Shown here one piece after another: positions 6,871-47,322 of a DNA stretch of 64,000 nt. Position numbers and translations under genes: made by a program. This DNA is from Spartobacteria bacterium. Its GTDB lineage: Bacteria > Verrucomicrobiota > Verrucomicrobiia > Chthoniobacterales > UBA6821. The notes beneath the pieces are model-generated. The model worked only from the letters and a program-made list of their open reading frames with translations. It did no database searches and was not told where the DNA came from. Position 1 is the first letter of the stretch. Each line of letters begins with the position of its first letter. The DNA lies in assembly GCA_947471565.1 (NCBI GenBank), contig CANIVT010000002.1:62001-126000 (forward strand), written 5' to 3'.

Positions 6871-9756
6871 ATGAATACCCCCCTGATACTTACGATCCTT
6901 GCCCTGCTGGGTCTGATTTTCCCCTGCCAATCCCAAGCCGGATCGTCATCGAATGCTCCCGCTTCCACCGCCAATCAGGCAGATTCGGCCCTTTCAGGAC
7001 GTGAGGTGCTCTCCTTTGATCAGGGATGGCGCTTTCACCAGGGAGACATCCCTTTCCCCGAGATCAAGGGGCATGGGGCGACCTATGGCAATGCAAAGGC
7101 GGGGAATGCCCCTGGAGCGGCGGCGACCGTCTTTGACGACACGGGCTGGAGGGTGGTGGATCTTCCTCATGACTGGGCCGTGGAGGGACCTTTCGATAAG
7201 AATGCGAATGTCTCCCAAGGTTATCGCCCCAGGGGGATCGGCTGGTACCGCAAGTCCTTCAAGGTCGATCCCGCCGACCATGGCAAGCATCTGGAGCTTC
7301 AGATCGACGGAGTCTCGACGCACTGCACGGTGTGGTTGAATGGCACCGAGGTCCATCATAACAACTGCGGGTATACCGGTTTCACCATAGACCTCACCCC
7401 GATGCTCCGCTACGGCGAGGATCTCAACACCATTTCTGTCCGCGTGGATGCCAACGCCATGGAGGGATGGTGGTACGAGGGAGCCGGCATCTACCGCCAT
7501 ACGCGCCTGGTGAAGCGTCCCCCGGTCCACCTTATGACGGACGGGGTCTTTGTTCAGCCTGTGAAGCAATCCGACGGCACTTGGATGATCCCGGCCGAGA
7601 TCAAGGTGGAAAACACCGGAAAGACGAACGCCGCCGCCTCGGTTGAGGTCACCCTCCGTGATCCGGATGGAAAACAAGTCACCTCGGTCACCACAACCTC
7701 CGAGGTTCCCGTGCTGGGAAACAAGGTTCTGCGACCGGAGCTCAAAGTGACCGACCCGAAGCTCTGGTCGGTTGATCACCCGATCCTTTACACGATCGAA
7801 ACCAAGGTCTCTGCGTCAAATCAGGCTGCCGACTTGGTATCGACCAAGGTCGGCTTCCGGACGATCCGGTTCGACGCGGAGAAGGGATTCTTCCTCAATG
7901 ACCAACCGCTCAAGATCAAGGGGACCTGCGATCACATCGACCACGCAGGGGTGGGGGTGGCCGTGCCCGACTCTCTCTGGGAGTTTCGCCTCCGCAAGCT
8001 CAAGGAGATGGGGGCCAACGCCCAACGCTGCTCCCACAATCCCCCGGGCACCGAATTTCTGGATGCGTGCGACCGACTCGGTGTCCTCGTCATGGACGAG
8101 AATCGGAACTTCAACTGCTCCCCGGAGTACATGGATCAGCTCCGATGGATGGTCCTCCACGACCGCAACCATCCCTCCGTCATCCTCTGGTCTGTCTTTA
8201 ACGAGGAGCCGATGCAGGGCACCGAGCAGGGCTACGAGATGGTCCGCCGAATGTCGGCCGCCGTGAAGGAACTCGATACGACCCGTCCCGTGACGGCAGC
8301 CCAGAGCGGTGGACAGATGAGTCCTGTCAATGTCTCCTCGGCGGTTGATGTCGTGGGCTTCAATTACCAGCAGGGAAGCTACGACGCCTACCACAAGTCC
8401 CATCCGGACAAGCCACTCACCAGCTCGGAGGACACCTCTGCCGTCATGACCCGCGGCGAGTACGAGACTGTGAAGAGCAACAACATCATCGCCGCCTACG
8501 ACGACGAGCATCCCGGATGGGGCAGCACCCATCACGAGGCCTGGAAGGCGATCGATACACGGCCGTTCGTCGCCGGGGGGTTCGTCTGGACCGGCTTTGA
8601 TTATCGTGGCGAGCCGACTCCCTTTACCTGGCCGAGCGCCGGATCCTTCTTTGGGTGCATGGATCTCTGTGGTTTCCCGAAGACCGCGTTCTTCATCCAT
8701 CAGGCGATGTGGATCAAGGACCGCCCGATCCTGGCAATCGCCCCACACTGGAACTGGAAGGGGAAAGAGGGAAAACCGATCCGTGTCATGGTGATCACCA
8801 ATGCCAAGCAAGCTGAACTATTCCTCAATGGAAAATCGCTTGGGGTTAAGGAGGTTGATCCTTACGCGATGGCCAACTGGGAGGTGCCGTATGAGTCGGG
8901 GAGTCTGGAGGCTGTGGCGCGGACAGACGGAAAGGAAATCGCCAGGTCCAAGGTGGAGACAACCGGTGAAGCGGTGTCTCTGAAGTTGATTCCCGACAGG
9001 ACATCGCTTGCGGGAGATGGACTCGACGCAATGCCCGTCACCATAGAGGCCGTGGATGCGCAGGGACGCGTTGTTCCCGGTGCCGCGCCGATGGTGACAT
9101 TCAAGGTCGAGGGTCCGGTGAAACTCATGGGACTCGGCAACGGCGACCCCAACTGCCATGAGCCGGAGCAAACGGACTCCCATTCCCTCTTCCACGGCCT
9201 CGGTCAGGCGATTATCCGTTCCCTGCCGAGGGCGCACGGCAACGCAACGATCCATGCGTCGGCTCCCGGACTTGCCGCAGCCTCGGTCACGGTTCCGGTG
9301 AATGTTGCCGCCGCCCCACCTTCAGTGCCGCCCGCGCCGCCCGTCCAGATCCTCGCAAAGTGGAGAATGTCGCCGCTCACCGAGACGAAGCCCGATCCCT
9401 CGGCAAAGATTGCGGACAACGACATGAACACATGGACGCAGGTCAAACTACCCAAGCTTGAAAGCACTCCGAAGCAGGGATGGATCGCTTTCCGTAGCGA
9501 CAAGTTCCGGCCCTTCGAGCAGCAGGCCAAGGAGGGGGGGATGATCCGTTTCCACGAACTCCGTGGAAGAGGGGAGATCTGGCTCGACGGGACCAAGGTC
9601 CACGATAAATCGGCGCCAAACACCATGCCCGTGGAAATCCCGCTTCCGGCGGGAGACAAGGAGCATCAACTCGTCCTGCTATTCCAGAAATCGGATGATG
9701 CCAAGGAGGCCGGCATCGGTGGTGTGGTCACGGTGGATGCGAAGGTCAGCCCGTAA
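6871..9756 (+). CDS. Secreted GH2 beta-galactosidase
   Basis: The 961-residue protein starts at the ATG at 6871, which gives a clean signal peptide (residues 1-23, cleavage near SQAG). Domain order: GH2 sugar-binding domain (about 45-215, starting FDQGWRFHQGDIPFP), immunoglobulin-like domain (about 220-335), TIM barrel (about 340-640), then beta-sandwich and binding domains to the end. The acid/base is Glu445 in SVFNEEP. Glu520 in PLTSSEDTS is the likely nucleophile. The barrel end shows GGFVWTGFDYRGEP. The layout fits secreted beta-galactosidases with a DUF4982-like segment. It would release beta-linked galactose from polysaccharide side chains. It is a separate transcription unit 200 bases after the fucosidase operon and converges with the next gene. 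Confidence 0.92.
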   Translation: MNTPLILTILALLGLIFPCQSQAGSSSNAPASTANQADSALSGREVLSFDQGWRFHQGDIPFPEIKGHGATYGNAKAGNAPGAAATVFDDTGWRVVDLPHDWAVEGPFDKNANVSQGYRPRGIGWYRKSFKVDPADHGKHLELQIDGVSTHCTVWLNGTEVHHNNCGYTGFTIDLTPMLRYGEDLNTISVRVDANAMEGWWYEGAGIYRHTRLVKRPPVHLMTDGVFVQPVKQSDGTWMIPAEIKVENTGKTNAAASVEVTLRDPDGKQVTSVTTTSEVPVLGNKVLRPELKVTDPKLWSVDHPILYTIETKVSASNQAADLVSTKVGFRTIRFDAEKGFFLNDQPLKIKGTCDHIDHAGVGVAVPDSLWEFRLRKLKEMGANAQRCSHNPPGTEFLDACDRLGVLVMDENRNFNCSPEYMDQLRWMVLHDRNHPSVILWSVFNEEPMQGTEQGYEMVRRMSAAVKELDTTRPVTAAQSGGQMSPVNVSSAVDVVGFNYQQGSYDAYHKSHPDKPLTSSEDTSAVMTRGEYETVKSNNIIAAYDDEHPGWGSTHHEAWKAIDTRPFVAGGFVWTGFDYRGEPTPFTWPSAGSFFGCMDLCGFPKTAFFIHQAMWIKDRPILAIAPHWNWKGKEGKPIRVMVITNAKQAELFLNGKSLGVKEVDPYAMANWEVPYESGSLEAVARTDGKEIARSKVETTGEAVSLKLIPDRTSLAGDGLDAMPVTIEAVDAQGRVVPGAAPMVTFKVEGPVKLMGLGNGDPNCHEPEQTDSHSLFHGLGQAIIRSLPRAHGNATIHASAPGLAAASVTVPVNVAAAPPSVPPAPPVQILAKWRMSPLTETKPDPSAKIADNDMNTWTQVKLPKLESTPKQGWIAFRSDKFRPFEQQAKEGGMIRFHELRGRGEIWLDGTKVHDKSAPNTMPVEIPLPAGDKEHQLVLLFQKSDDAKEAGIGGVVTVDAKVSP

Positions 9757-9765
9757 GCTGACGAA

Positions 9766-11406
9766 TTAGCCACCTGCCAGGAGCTTCTTCCTGAGGCGTT
9801 GGGCCATCGGCCCGACGCCGTGTTTCACATCCCCCCAGGCACCCTTGCCGGAGTTGTAGCGGAAGCCCTCCTCCTTGTAGAGGGTGGGGGTGGCGGGATT
9901 CTTTTCCGCAGATTCGCGCCAAGCGGCCCAGACGCCGTCGTATTCCGTGAGGAGTCTTGCGGCCGTCGCGGCATCGAAGTGCTCCTCGCAGGCCTTCATC
10001 TCGAAGTTGAGCCGGTAGATCGTGTATAGGAAGCGGCCGTAGTCGCAGGAGACCCGGACGAATTCCCGTGTCTCCTCATCGGCGAAGGTGATTTTGGAGG
10101 CGAGTTCGCAGATCTGCTTCCAGATCTCTTCGGCCTCGCGCTTCTGGGCAAGCACCCGGGCGCGCTTCTCCGGATCGTTGGGTAAATCGGGCTCGCCGAT
10201 GTACTGGTCGCGGCTCCACCATGGACGGATATCGTTGTGGGTTGTGCGCTTGCCTCGGATCACCGATTTGGCCGAGAGGAGGCAGAGTTCGCGGAAGCGC
10301 GCTGCATCTTCTGCGGAAAGCTTCAGGATCTCCGTGCAGTACCGGAGGAAAACCTCCTCCTCGGTCTGGCGCGGATTGCCTCCCCACTGGGCGGAAACCC
10401 AGGCATTGAGGGAGCACCAGAACTCGTTCTTCGTGTAGGGGCCGAGCCATCCTCCTCCTCGGCTCCAGGTCCAGACCCCCGCGTAGAGAAGGGACTGCTG
10501 AGCGAACTCGCGGAGTCCCTTGGTGTAGCCGGCTTCCATCGTGAATGCGTATTCCTCGAAGCCGTTGATCACGCCCTCCAGGACATAGTTGGGGTAACAG
10601 CCCTTTCCCTCATATTCGCGTGCACACTGCACCTCGATGATTTGGGGATGGCGTCCCTGACCGATGACGCGGCTGAAGCGGTTGCCGCGGTGAAAGTCCC
10701 CCTCGCAGTGCTTCACGCTGATTGTGAGCAGTGGATGCGGTTCCACGGCGGCATCCACCACGGCGTAGGCCTCGGGATCGGCGTCGAAGGAGAGCCAGGT
10801 GCGGAAGAAGAGTGTTTTGCCCCGCTTCACGCAGAGCTCCTCGCGCAGCAACTGCATCAGCGGGATGATGGTCTCGGAGGGATTCTTCTTCTCGCGGATG
10901 CCGCCCGCATGGTGAGGGGCATCGTCGAGGTAGGTTTCACCGATCCGGACAATGAGACCGTCGAGTTCGGGAAGAACCTCGAAGCTCTCGGCGATCATAT
11001 GACGCAGGAGTTCCTGCGTGCGGGGATGACGGGGATCCCTCCAGTCAGTTCCCTCGGCCTCCATCTTCGCCGCGAGGCGCTTGGGCAGAAGGATCAGGTC
11101 CGACATGCAGAGGACCCCGACGCCCGCGGCCTTGATGCCGCCGTAGAGTTTCTTGAGCCGCGCCGCCTTGGCATCCACCCAGGCTCGTTCCTCGCTTCCC
11201 CGAGGGAAGATGGAAGGATCGAAGCCCTCCCAGTTGATGGCCAACTGGGGGGAGTCGAAGATCATGAAGACCTTCGAGTCGAATCCGTAATCCCTGAGAT
11301 GGTCTGGGTCGTTGAAGGCTGTGACGAACGCAGCATCGCCGGGGTTGTCGTGGACTAGGTCGAGGGTGCGGGGTGTGCGTAGCGCCAGGGAGGGGAATTC
11401 GCTCAT
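9766..11406 (-). CDS. Uncharacterised TIM-barrel glycosidase-like protein
   Basis: I do not recognise this 546-residue protein with certainty. It has no signal peptide and should be cytoplasmic. Alternating strand/helix segments, many Trp and Tyr residues, and conserved-looking acidic patches (VRIGETYLDDAPHH near residues 175-190, VFMIFDSPQLAINWEGFDPS near 46-65, ISVKHCEGDFHRGNRF near 248-263) suggest a (beta/alpha)8 barrel of glycoside-hydrolase type. Distant similarity to the GH67/GH115 alpha-glucuronidase style is possible but not demonstrable by eye. The start at 11406 is the first Met of the open frame. It lies downstream of the beta-helix gene on the same strand with a gap of only nine bases, so the two are probably co-transcribed and act on one glycan. 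Confidence 0.65.
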   Translation of the reverse strand: MSEFPSLALRTPRTLDLVHDNPGDAAFVTAFNDPDHLRDYGFDSKVFMIFDSPQLAINWEGFDPSIFPRGSEERAWVDAKAARLKKLYGGIKAAGVGVLCMSDLILLPKRLAAKMEAEGTDWRDPRHPRTQELLRHMIAESFEVLPELDGLIVRIGETYLDDAPHHAGGIREKKNPSETIIPLMQLLREELCVKRGKTLFFRTWLSFDADPEAYAVVDAAVEPHPLLTISVKHCEGDFHRGNRFSRVIGQGRHPQIIEVQCAREYEGKGCYPNYVLEGVINGFEEYAFTMEAGYTKGLREFAQQSLLYAGVWTWSRGGGWLGPYTKNEFWCSLNAWVSAQWGGNPRQTEEEVFLRYCTEILKLSAEDAARFRELCLLSAKSVIRGKRTTHNDIRPWWSRDQYIGEPDLPNDPEKRARVLAQKREAEEIWKQICELASKITFADEETREFVRVSCDYGRFLYTIYRLNFEMKACEEHFDAATAARLLTEYDGVWAAWRESAEKNPATPTLYKEEGFRYNSGKGAWGDVKHGVGPMAQRLRKKLLAGG

Positions 11407-40339: not shown

Positions 40340-41425
40340 TTACTCCCAGTTCGAGTAAGGCTCGATGGGGCGAGCGGAGGAATTTGTGGCAAGGAAGTCG
40401 GTGCGTTGTTCCGTGGTGCCGAAGAGGTAAAGGGCGTAGCCTCCGAATCCCCCGCCGCAGTATTTGCGTCCGAGGCAGCCCGTGGCTTCCGGCAGGGGAT
40501 CCATCCCCTCGGCAAGCTGTGCCGCGTAGGAGGCGGCGACTCCCTGTGCAAGATCCACGACATTTCCTGAGAGGACTCCGTTCCTTGCGAGGCGGCTTGC
40601 CGCGGTGATGGCACCATAGTCACGGTCGCGGGAGGCGATCGCCGGAGTATCGTGTGATTTCCCCGACCAGAGCAAGGCCATCAGGCCCCGTATCATGGAA
40701 CCGTCGCTCTTGAATTCAAGGGATGGTTTGGTGCCGCTCCGCCAGACACAAAGACCGGTCTCACGAATCACTGCGGGATCCTGCCAGCCCACACCCAGGG
40801 CGAGTTCCTCGTCGACACCAGTATTGCCGTTCAAAAGAGCCCATGCTCCGCTACCACCGAGTCCGGCATTGCGCTCATAACCCCAGTCCCTGAGCGAGAC
40901 CTTGGGCTGGATGGCGCAGTTGACGATGAAGCCGTCCTCTCGGGCATGGGAGGGAACATCGAGCCATCCGCCTGCAAAATCGACCCTGAGGGGTGCATCT
41001 TTCGGGGCTCGGATCCATTTCACGAGTTGTGAGGTCGAGACGGGGGCGAATTGCGGCGGGGTCTTGGGCAGGATCACATACTCGGCCCCGATCTGCGTGC
41101 AGAGATCACGCTTGAGTTGTCCGTACTGGTCATCCTCGGTGACGGCCAGAATGTGGGGTTTGAGCCGAAGGAAGTCCTCTTTGAAGTCGAGACCGTGCTC
41201 GGTGCCCTTGCCGATGACGACTTGGTCAATCATGTCGAGTGCCTCAAGAATCCCTTTTTTGTGCTCATCGGGGAGCGAAGAACGTCGTTGCTTATGCGCC
41301 CAGAGCACCTCCTCGGAGGCAAAGGAAACGGTGAGAAAATCCCCCTGCGCCTTGGCCTCGCGGAAGAACTGCACATGGCCCGCATGGATGATGTCGTAGC
41401 AACCGGAGACGAAAACGTGACGCAT
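40340..41425 (-). CDS. Nucleotidyltransferase-GHMP kinase fusion protein
   Basis: This 361-residue protein joins two enzymes. Residues 1-135 are a cytidylyltransferase-type domain with the start RHVFVSGCYDIIHAGHVQFF; HAGH (14-17) is the nucleotide-binding HxGH motif, as in HldE and RfaE. Residues about 140-361 resemble a GHMP sugar kinase: APLRVDFAGGWLDVPSHARE (opening motif), GLGGSGAWA (188-196, ATP loop) and the C-terminal signature KYCGGGFGGYALYLF (321-335). GHMP kinases of the HddA type make heptose bisphosphate and nucleotidyltransferases then activate it; a fused pair would make a nucleotide-activated sugar. The kinase half is short by about 100 residues, so a second substrate or loss of activity is possible. 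The sugar is unknown. Confidence 0.82.
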   Translation of the reverse strand: MRHVFVSGCYDIIHAGHVQFFREAKAQGDFLTVSFASEEVLWAHKQRRSSLPDEHKKGILEALDMIDQVVIGKGTEHGLDFKEDFLRLKPHILAVTEDDQYGQLKRDLCTQIGAEYVILPKTPPQFAPVSTSQLVKWIRAPKDAPLRVDFAGGWLDVPSHAREDGFIVNCAIQPKVSLRDWGYERNAGLGGSGAWALLNGNTGVDEELALGVGWQDPAVIRETGLCVWRSGTKPSLEFKSDGSMIRGLMALLWSGKSHDTPAIASRDRDYGAITAASRLARNGVLSGNVVDLAQGVAASYAAQLAEGMDPLPEATGCLGRKYCGGGFGGYALYLFGTTEQRTDFLATNSSARPIEPYSNWE

Positions 41426-43997: not shown

Positions 43998-44732
43998 TCA
44001 GCGGGCCAAAGCCCGCAAGGCATGCCTCACCGTCTCGGCGCAGGCTTTGGAGGCTGATTCCTCGACGAATTTCGCGAAGTCGATATGGGCGCTTCCATCG
44101 GCGCTGTCGGAGATGACCCGCATGACACCAAGCGGAATGCCTGCCGCCCGGCAAACCTGGGCAATGGCGGCGGATTCCATGTCCACGGCGCAGGCCTTGG
44201 GGAGATTGGTCAGGACGCGATTCCTGGCTTCCTGACTGGAAAGAAACTGGTCGCCGCTGATAACCAGTCCCTCTAAGACCTCAGCCTGCCCTAACCCGGG
44301 AGGGCGTGACGAATCCAGCATCGAGCGGGCCGCTCCGGCAAGGAGATGTCTCAACTCGGGGTCTGATCCGATGACAGAGAAACCCTCGAAGGGGATCTCG
44401 TGCAGAGGAAAGAGGGGCCGGGCATCCATGTCATGCTGCACAAAGGAGTCGCCGATGACCACATCCCCAACCTTCAGCCCCTCGGCGAGTCCCCCTGAGA
44501 CCCCTGTTACCAGAAGGCGCGAAATTCGTGCCTGGCAGGCCATCAGGGTGGCCGCATGGGTGGCGTTCACCTTGCCGCATCCGCAGAGAATCAGCGCTAC
44601 ATTCTCCCCTTCGAGCGTTCCGTAGAGGATTTCACGCCCGGCGATCTTTTCGCTGGAGTCGTGCTCCAGCGAATCGGCCAGATCGCGAAACTCCGATTCC
44701 ATGGCGGCGATGATCCCGGTTCGGTAGTTCAT
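43998..44732 (-). CDS. mtnN: 5'-methylthioadenosine/S-adenosylhomocysteine nucleosidase
   Basis: MtnN cleaves adenine from methylthioadenosine and S-adenosylhomocysteine, recycling by-products of methylation and polyamine synthesis. The 244-residue protein begins at the ATG at 44732 (MNYRTGIIAAMESE), matching the family; longer upstream frames are not supported. Catalytic residues are visible: Glu12, Glu186 in VDMESAAIAQV and Asp209 in ISDSAD. SGDQFL is the substrate-binding block. It diverges from gnd with 160 bases between starts. Confidence 0.92.
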   Translation of the reverse strand: MNYRTGIIAAMESEFRDLADSLEHDSSEKIAGREILYGTLEGENVALILCGCGKVNATHAATLMACQARISRLLVTGVSGGLAEGLKVGDVVIGDSFVQHDMDARPLFPLHEIPFEGFSVIGSDPELRHLLAGAARSMLDSSRPPGLGQAEVLEGLVISGDQFLSSQEARNRVLTNLPKACAVDMESAAIAQVCRAAGIPLGVMRVISDSADGSAHIDFAKFVEESASKACAETVRHALRALAR

Positions 44733-44892
44733 GACGCCGAGCCTAGCCTCTGATTTTCGTTCATCCAGCCCGGACCGTGTTGCACAAGTCCTGATTGTTT
44801 CTCCAAGCCGCGCTTGACGGGGCGGGATTCCTCTGTGATGAGAGGGGTTCACATTCACCCTCCTCATCAAGGAATAACAAGGAATCAAGCAT

Positions 44893-45912
44893 ATGCGTAT
44901 CGGAATGGTCGGCCTCGGCCGCATGGGAGCCAACATGGTCCTCCGTCTCATCAAGGCGGGTCACGAAGTCGTCGTTTGGGATCGCAGCGAGGCTGTGGTC
45001 AAGGATCTGGCCTCGAAGGGGGCGATTGCAGCAGCCGATCAGGCTGATCTGGTCTCCAAGCTCACCGGTCCCAAGGCCGTCTGGATGATGATCCCCGCCG
45101 CTTACGTGGATGACACCATTGCTACCTTCTCACCCCTCCTCGGTAAGGGTGATATCCTCATTGACGGCGGCAACTCCTACTACAAGGACGACATCCGCCG
45201 CGCCAGAGAGCTTGCTGCCAAGGGGATCGAATACGTCGATGTCGGCACCTCGGGCGGCGTCTGGGGTCTGGAGCGCGGGTATTGCGAGATGATTGGTGGT
45301 TCCCAGGAGGCTGTCGGCTACCTTGACCCGATCCTGAAGACACTTGCTCCCGGCAAGGGAGACGCCCCCGTCACCCCGGGCCGCACCCGCAAGGGCACGG
45401 CCGAGGAGGGGTATCTTCACTGTGGTCCCAACGGTGCAGGACACTTCGTTAAGATGGTCCACAACGGTATTGAGTACGGCATGATGGCCGCCTACGCCGA
45501 GGGGCTGAACATCCTCAAGAACGCCAATGCCGGCAAGGTGAAGCGCGAGATCGATGCGGAGACAACACCACTTCGCGATCCCGAGAACTACCAGTACGAC
45601 CTCGATCTCCCCGAGATCACCGAGGTTTGGCGTCGAGGCAGCGTGGTCGCCAGCTGGCTGCTAGACCTTACTGCCGACGCATTGGCCCGCGATCCTGAGC
45701 TCAAGACCTTCGGTGGCCGCGTCAGCGACTCCGGCGAGGGGCGCTGGACGATTCTGGCTGCGATCGAGGAGGGCGTTCCCTCCCCTGTCCTCAGCTCCGC
45801 TCTCTATGAGCGCTTCTCAAGCCGCAATCTCGCAGAGTATGCCGACAAGATCTGCTCGGCGATGCGCTTCGAGTTCGGCGGTCACCTCGAGAAGCCAGCC
45901 GGTTCCAAGTAA
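44893..45912 (+). CDS. gnd: 6-phosphogluconate dehydrogenase, decarboxylating
   Basis: Gnd oxidises 6-phosphogluconate to ribulose 5-phosphate with CO2 release in the pentose phosphate pathway. At 339 residues it belongs to the shorter YqeC/GntZ-like class. The Rossmann motif is [12 protein letters not shown] (4-15); the substrate block is [20 protein letters not shown] and the catalytic Lys and Asn lie in [20 protein letters not shown]. It is followed 30 bases later by zwf, so the two oxidative steps are encoded together, though in reverse reaction order. Confidence 0.95.
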
Positions 45913-45942
45913 CCTCTGCAATAACCCCAGTCACCCGCCGTC

Positions 45943-47322
45943 ATGCCCGCAGAAAAAAGCGACGCCCTGGTCCTCTTCGGGGCCACCGGAGACCTAGCCC
46001 ACAAGAAGCTTTTCGACACCCTTCAGGCGCTCTACCGCCGCGGGGTGCTCGAGGGGCCCGTGATCGGGGTCGCCAAGAGCGGCATGACGCGGGAACAGGT
46101 CATCGACCGTGCCCGCGAGGGGATCACCACTTACGGACGAGGTGTGGACGAGGCATTCTTCAAGAAATTTGCCGACCAATTCCAGTATGTGGACGGGGAC
46201 TACTCGGATCCCACGACCTTCCAGAATCTCAAGGCCGCTTTGGGAGACTCCAAGCAGACGCTCTTCTACCTGGCTATTCCTCCCGTCCTCTTCGGAACGG
46301 TCACCAAGGGACTCAAGGCCGCGGGATGCCTCAACGATGCGTCCCGCGTCGTCGTCGAGAAGCCATTCGGCCATGATGCCGCCTCTGCCAAGGCCCTCAA
46401 CAAGACTCTCCACGAGGTCCTTGAGGAACGTCAGGTTTTCCGTATTGATCACTACCTCGGCAAGGAGGCGACCCAGAACGTCCTCTACACCCGCTTTGCC
46501 AACGCGTTCCTGGAACCGGTCTGGAACCGCAACTACATCAGCAACATCCAGATCACCATGGCCGAGTCGTTCGGCGTGCAGGGACGCGGCGCTTTCTATG
46601 ACGCCACAGGCTGCCTGCGCGATGTGATCGAGAACCATCTCATGCAGGTCGTCGGTTTCCTCTGCATGGAACCGCCCTACTGGCCCGACATGGAGCGCGT
46701 GCGCGACGAGCAGGTGAAGCTCTTCAAGTCGATCCGTACCATCTCGACCAACGACATCGTCCGCGGCCAGTTCGAGGGATACCTCCAGGAACCTGGCGTC
46801 GCCACTGACAGCACGACCGAGACCTTTGCCGCTGTCCGTGTCTTTGTCGACAATTGGCGCTGGCAGGGCGTCCCCATCTACATCCGCGCCGGAAAGAATC
46901 TTCCCGTCAGCGCCACCGAGGTGCGCGTGCAGTTCCACCGTCCGCCGCAGGTCGTCTTCCCCGACGAGCAGGCCCCGATGCACAACTACGTTCGCTTTCT
47001 CTTCTCGCCCCGGATCGAGATCGGAATCTCCATGCAGGTAAAGATCGATGGCGAGCGCATGGTCGGCGAACCGATGGAACTCAAGGTTGTTGACCAGCAA
47101 CCCGATGAGATGACACCCTACGAGCGCCTCATCGGAGATGCGATCCAGGGCGATCAGGCCCTCTTTGCCCGTCAGGATGTGGTTGAGGAAGGATGGCGGA
47201 TCGTCGAGAGGATCATCGGCAACTCCGTCCCCGTCCATCCCTACAAGCCCGGCACCTGGGGCCCCGATGCCGTCAACGACGTGCTCCTACCCTCGGGCGG
47301 ATGGCATGGCCCGCAGGTCTGA
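45943..47322 (+). CDS. zwf: Glucose-6-phosphate 1-dehydrogenase
   Basis: Zwf makes 6-phosphogluconolactone and NADPH. The 459-residue enzyme has the coenzyme motif [11 protein letters not shown] (13-23), EKPFGHD and the substrate signature [15 protein letters not shown] (167-181) with catalytic His. The C-terminal half shows [17 protein letters not shown] and the ending [17 protein letters not shown]. It is co-directional with gnd. No lactonase (pgl) gene is adjacent, so that step is encoded elsewhere or occurs unaided. Confidence 0.96.

Follow-up and report, generated by a model that had tools for sequence, protein, structure and literature searches.

An HxGH nucleotidyltransferase fused to a pared-down GHMP kinase in Verrucomicrobiota, a probable functional analogue of the fucose-activating enzyme FKP

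The window, a stretch of 64,000 nucleotides from a Spartobacteria bacterium, carries a gene whose product is confirmed by domain content as a fusion of an HxGH nucleotidyltransferase (NTase) and a short GHMP kinase (Table 1). The open reading frame and its HAGH, GLGGSGAWA and KYCGGGFGGY motifs are present as reported in a preliminary description of the sequence. The N-terminal half matched CTP_transf_like at 30.1 bits against a Pfam gathering score of 21, and all 55 fusion members matched PF01467 at an E value of ≤0.01. A single-sequence Pfam scan of the window protein gave no match in the kinase half, so that Pfam sees the N-terminal half only. Against NCBIfam, the rfaE_dom_II and TagD models matched below threshold, and there was a trace match to FKP, the L-fucokinase/GDP-fucose pyrophosphorylase of Bacteroides fragilis. 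This trace was confined to residues 143 to 173, where the FKP family model NF009948 scored 13.3 bits against a curated cutoff of 721 bits.

Table 1. Features of the fusion gene, in window coordinates (aa, residues of the encoded protein)
Feature	Coordinates	Strand	Remarks
NTase/mini-GHMP kinase fusion gene	40340..41425	(-)	ATG start, 361 aa plus stop; full-length orthologs found
N-terminal HxGH nucleotidyltransferase domain, aa 1-139	41009..41425	(-)	Pfam CTP_transf_like (6e-7) and Foldseek
HAGH catalytic motif, aa 14-17	41375..41386	(-)	H14, G16 and H17 invariant in 55 proteins
C-terminal compact GHMP kinase domain, aa 140-361	40343..41008	(-)	Profile-profile, Foldseek and PDB profile matches
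GHMP motif 1 PLRVDFAGGWLDVP, aa 145-158	40952..40993	(-)	R147, W154 and D156 equal FKP R592, W599 and D601; invariant in 55
Junction, aa 177-187, where ~82 residues of a normal FKP-type kinase are absent, modelled adenine pocket included	40865..40897	(-)	
P-loop GLGGSGAWA, aa 188-196	40838..40864	(-)	G188 and S192 invariant; S192 equals FKP S719 (Mg2+)
Catalytic-base motif GWQDP, aa 213-217	40775..40789	(-)	G213, Q215 and D216 invariant in 55; Q215 and D216 equal FKP Q761 and D762
GHMP motif 3 KYCGGGFGGY, aa 321-330	40436..40465	(-)	G324, G326, G328 and G329 invariant; G326 is altered in the Akkermansia G326E suppressor

The kinase half was recognized by profile and structure comparisons. A profile of 55 relatives matched the PDB sequences of heptose kinase 3k85 (1e-20), WcbL (4usm; 3e-19) and FKP (9iip; 8e-19), and profile-profile alignment of the kinase half with FKP kinase domains (hhalign) gave an E value of 1.5e-7. 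An AF2 model built with 38 close relatives had a pLDDT of 84 and an uncertain P-loop (pLDDT of about 55). The model built with 55 sequences from three subfamilies reached a pLDDT of 91.9 and a pTM of 0.77, with a P-loop helix at residues 191 to 198 and a P-loop pLDDT of about 86 to 90, a rise due to the added sister subfamilies. The top Foldseek match of the AF2 model was 9iip, which is the fucokinase domain of FKP in complex with fucose-1-phosphate (E = 3.5e-10), followed by WcbL and then by the nucleotidyltransferases TagD, Fom1 and HldC; as the alignment runs across two domains, the whole-chain RMSDs are large. The N-terminal domain matched TagD (2b7l), the Fom1 cytidylyltransferase (5x3d), HldC (5xf2) and 3glv, with TM-scores between 0.71 and 0.87 depending on the target. 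The protein thus has the three motifs and the two-lobe fold of the GHMP superfamily (invariant motifs, Foldseek match to 9iip and PDB profile matches below 1e-17). The predicted fold, whose completeness the preliminary description had left to be checked, is nevertheless not whole: the N-terminal lobe lacks the adenine-pocket segment, with only two predicted strands (144-151 and 166-176) before the P-loop helix.

The kinase half had been estimated as about 100 residues shorter than HddA-like kinases, and a shortfall of this kind is borne out by measurement: motif 1 Arg to the C terminus takes about 215 residues in the window protein and 356 to 358 in FKP. From the same Arg to the P-loop Gly, there are 41 residues in the window protein and 47 and 37 in the sister subfamilies, compared with 123 to 124 in FKP. 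Some 82 residues are therefore absent in all three fusion subfamilies, including the segment modelled to contact adenine in FKP. The FKP crystal paper models the adenine base on D644, M645, P666, I669 and L722 (PMC11982464), and the first four of these all fall within the absent segment. Between the P-loop and the catalytic Asp, a further ~19 residues have been lost in the window subfamily. With the adenine-pocket segment missing, an ATP-dependent kinase activity cannot simply be assumed.

The rest of the active site is kept. The residues that hold fucose or act in catalysis in FKP, R592, W599, D601, S719, Q761 and D762 (PMC11982464), correspond to R147, W154, D156, S192, Q215 and D216 of the window protein and are invariant in 55/55 fusions. 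E207, invariant in the window subfamily only, may be the counterpart of FKP E751. Two positions count against an FKP-like reading, as T602, which contacts the C3 hydroxyl in FKP, is V157 in the window protein, and the position of S720 is mostly glycine in the fusions (G193). Relatives without the ATP loop, which had been named as grounds for dismissing a kinase, did not appear: the P-loop Gly and Ser are invariant.

We sampled the family in 388 genomes of the phylum, plus one scan of genome contigs with the window protein. The kinase-half profile matched 61 of the 388 genomes; one weak match belonged to a sister subfamily, leaving 60 with the window-type fusion. The open frames at these matches were at least 356 aa long, except for one end-of-contig fragment, and every one extracted contained both domains. 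The distribution is patchy within the window's own genus (10 to 11 of 16 genomes). Full-length identity is 78 to 85% across this genus and 51 to 66% in other families (Akkermansiaceae, Opitutaceae and others). dN/dS is about 0.06 to 0.12 across the gene in both halves, with nonsynonymous change of 0.05 to 0.18 and synonymous change that is nearly saturated for most pairs. Purifying selection acts on both halves; the family is old and conserved, and the fusion is no chance product.

Two sister subfamilies share the architecture. FUS2 proteins (L100 and L114) have 445 to 462 aa and retain a Pfam GHMP_kinases_C match; each of their genes (L100, 2405-3742; L114, 1438-2826) immediately follows a gene for a sigma-54 response regulator. 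FUS3 proteins have about 380 aa, and about 40 genomes of the phylum gave strong matches over the full length. In a tree of nucleotidyltransferases, the FUS1 and FUS3 domains stood apart from HldC and HldE, and the placement of FUS2 was uncertain. At one locus (L168), kinase and nucleotidyltransferase are separate neighbouring genes. Standalone mini-GHMP kinases of ~260 aa occur there (8619-9413, adjoining a separate HxGH NTase at 9757-10245) and at L167 (8522-9295). Several genomes with the standalone form also carry FKP, unlike fusion genomes, so its substrate may differ.

Of the 388 genomes, 67 carry FKP and 60 carry the window-type fusion, and none carries both, where an overlap of about 10 was expected (hypergeometric P = 4e-6 when counted by genome and 1e-3 when counted by genus, both without phylogenetic correction). 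Co-occurrence of the fusion with gmd across genomes is uninformative because gmd is present in 267/388, and only local linkage is informative. The gene order was gmd-FKP-fcl at two loci (L165 and L166) and FUS3-gmd-fcl at three (L152, L158 and L160). Window-type fusions of Akkermansiaceae relatives lie beside gmd and fcl in five genomes, with gaps of 0.1 to 3 kb, at loci that also contain wecG and sulfate-activation genes. A fusion in Opitutaceae (L029) likewise accompanies gmd and fcl, with the gmd start 74 bases past the fusion. Fusions and FKP thus fill one slot in gmd-fcl operons, with GHMP kinases attached to nucleotidyltransferases that are unrelated to each other.

Eight genomes of the genus Akkermansia contain the fusion and lack both gmd and FKP; in three of them (G106, G190 and G150), we found GT10/GT11 fucosyltransferase matches above the Pfam cutoff. 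In one Akkermansia genome, an acyltransferase gene separates a fusion copy from a gene for a GH29-like fucosidase ~1.6 kb away. The window's own genus showed no pathway neighbours, and the gene stands alone there among porin, transglycosylase-like and hypothetical genes. A search of the window's own genome for GT10/GT11 found none, which counts against a fucose reading there.

The window protein is, by sequence comparison, an ortholog of Amuc_1591 at about 60% identity; the two have both domains in common, and positions V176 and G326 carry the same numbers in each. A report of June 2026 describes Amuc_1591: all 12 spontaneous D-arabinose-resistant mutants carried lesions in it (V176G, G326E and frameshift), L-fucose or mucin restored growth on D-arabinose, and the authors called the C-terminal domain sugar-kinase-like and proposed a fucose-nucleotidyltransferase (PMC13313206). 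Both of these reported missense changes map to the kinase half, and the Akkermansia fusion copy next to murJ has V176 and G326 at exactly the reported mutant positions. The genome of this copy (G080) encodes an Amuc_1100 protein 96% identical to the known one, with a query sequence that may be approximate. B. fragilis FKP accepts D-arabinose (PMC11982464), and the lipooligosaccharide (LOS) core of A. muciniphila contains fucose (PMC13135019). The core member of the family is already in print, and what is new is the variant, its breadth and its pared-down kinase. The available part of the Amuc_1591 paper covers phenotype, a model and the nucleotidyltransferase label, with no mention there of the missing adenine segment, family breadth, gmd/fcl linkage or FKP exclusion (PMC13313206); a 2025 paper on the evolution of FKP has no mention of Akkermansia or Verrucomicrobia.

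Among known systems, FKP (9iip and 9iit) is the closest in plan. The preliminary description held that FKP differs in kinase type or domain order, but the order is identical, nucleotidyltransferase then GHMP kinase, and it is the nucleotidyltransferase fold that differs: FKP has a GT-A-like pyrophosphorylase with a beta-helix, and the fusion has an HxGH domain of the CTP_transf_like type. The two also share the kinase active-site residues, the gmd-fcl slot in this phylum and a link to D-arabinose, which FKP accepts and which figures in the Amuc_1591 phenotype. FKP has 949 aa and a full GHMP kinase with an adenine pocket, whereas the window protein has 361 aa and no adenine segment. With its low NF009948 score and its lack of the pyrophosphorylase fold, the fusion is better described as a functional analogue of FKP than as a member of that family. 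HldE (RfaE), the heptose-7-phosphate kinase/heptose-1-phosphate adenylyltransferase, likewise joins an rfaE_dom_II-type HxGH NTase to a sugar kinase, but its kinase is N-terminal with a ribokinase fold; the window protein has no such kinase and matched only rfaE_dom_II, below the cutoff. The HddA/WcbL heptose kinases (4usm and 3k85) have the GHMP fold and the same P-loop-to-motif-3 motifs, yet they are full-length standalone kinases with GGGTD in motif 1 and no fused NTase, whereas the fusions have GGWxD. The window protein, with GGWLD, gave no match to the HddA model NF049969. TagD, HldC and the Fom1 cytidylyltransferase domain share the fold of the N-terminal domain and are standalone or fused to other domains, none to a GHMP kinase.

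We consider it probable that the fusion is a bifunctional salvage enzyme that activates an L-fucose-type sugar as a functional analogue of FKP, with C1 phosphorylation by the C-terminal domain and formation of NDP-fucose, probably GDP-fucose, by the N-terminal domain. The mini-GHMP domain would bind free L-fucose, or a sugar with its C2-C4 configuration (e.g., D-arabinopyranose), and phosphorylate C1, with R147, S192/Mg2+ and D216 acting as in FKP. The HxGH domain would then transfer NMP to the resulting sugar-1-phosphate and release PPi; the NDP-sugar formed, GDP-L-fucose being the most likely, would be destined for LPS or exopolysaccharide. CTP or ATP is the usual substrate of HxGH enzymes, so use of GTP by the fusion is uncertain. 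This reading draws on the FKP active-site residues, on FKP never occurring in fusion genomes, on the shared operon slot and on the eight Akkermansia-genus genomes, three of them with fucosyltransferase matches. The GH29-like fucosidase and the fucose in the LOS core (PMC13135019) point the same way, as do the Amuc_1591 phenotype and its rescue and the acceptance of D-arabinose by FKP (PMC13313206 and PMC11982464). The gene's lone position in the window's genus and its presence in only 10 to 11 of 16 members count against this reading. We infer kinase activity, phosphoryl donor and nucleotide identity, and, from orthology only, the substrate in the window's own organism. Of the earlier proposals, the best supported is that a single protein makes a nucleotide sugar for a surface glycan, with a free L-fucose-type sugar a more likely substrate than the sugar phosphate then suggested.

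More tentatively, the mini-GHMP domain could be a new mode of sugar kinase that dispenses with the adenine pocket. Either the kinase would grip the donor through its phosphates alone (an NTP of any base, or even PPi from the neighbouring NTase), or the fused domain or another subunit would supply a base pocket, coupling the steps from free sugar to NDP-sugar in one 360-residue chain. If fucose activation is correct, the fusion would be a second, independently assembled one-protein route from free to activated fucose, widespread in the phylum including Akkermansia. It would explain the supply of activated fucose for surface glycans in members without gmd or FKP, and an enzyme less than half the size of FKP would be of use in enzymatic GDP-fucose synthesis. 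It would also provide a natural GHMP kinase lacking the adenine-binding segment, with which the minimal fold for phosphoryl transfer could be probed.

The loss of ~82 residues with the FKP adenine contacts in all three subfamilies could also mean that the C-terminal domain has lost kinase activity and only binds sugar-1-phosphate, supplied by a separate kinase, for the N-terminal NTase. The window-type P-loop GLGGSG departs from the classical GLGSSS, and this alternative comes close to the wording "fucose-nucleotidyltransferase" in the Amuc_1591 report (PMC13313206). We regard it as unlikely, since D216, R147, S192 and the motif 3 glycines are invariant in 55 diverse proteins, which is more than sugar-1-phosphate binding alone would need, and since FKP is absent from fusion genomes, leaving no other anomeric fucokinase of the FKP kind found. 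Activation of another sugar, either a heptose (HddA/HddC or HldE pathways) or a galactose-type sugar, is less probable still. The NTase domain is closest to the rfaE_dom_II (HldE/HldC) and TagD models, WcbL was the second Foldseek match, and one Akkermansia-genus copy lies beside hldE-gmhA-gmhB. However, the genus has its own HldE-type kinase in 16/16 genomes and HldC-like nucleotidyltransferase in 15/16, and the FKP-specific Trp of motif 1 replaces the Gly of HddA-like kinases; heptose activation, one of the roles first suggested, was rejected as the main reading on these grounds. Supply of Gmd by the fusion (GDP-heptose to 6-deoxyheptose) was rejected because of the eight Akkermansia-genus genomes with the fusion and without gmd, which show that it does not simply feed Gmd. 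That the gene encodes a catalytically inactive relic, regulatory or decaying, as also suggested earlier, could be argued from its patchiness in the genus and its lack of an obvious pathway neighbour. This is very improbable given the low dN/dS in both halves and the invariant active sites, and mutations in the Akkermansia ortholog give a phenotype (PMC13313206).

We also made several minor observations. A standalone HldC-like NTase was not found in the window's own genome, which keeps the HldE-type kinase, and is present in 15/15 other genus members (about 1e-51), pointing to an assembly gap or a loss. Many Akkermansia-genus genomes have a second, divergent fusion copy within a glycosyltransferase cluster (L073, 9292-10383; L075, 9398-10489), with a gene for a GH29-like alpha-L-fucosidase about 1.6 kb away. 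In genome G284 (L070, 6226-14591), the fusion lies in an LPS core cluster, where it adjoins hldE, gmhA, gmhB, a family 9 glycosyltransferase and two msbA-like transporters. A genome labelled Proteobacteria (RFPR01 contigs; L021 and L038) evidently belongs to the window's genus; its assembly, in which the gene occurs in two versions, is mislabelled and mixed. Finally, an MTA/SAH-nucleosidase-like gene next to gnd and zwf (window positions 43998-47322) is kept beside the OprB-like porin and the fusion at two other loci (L023 and L024).
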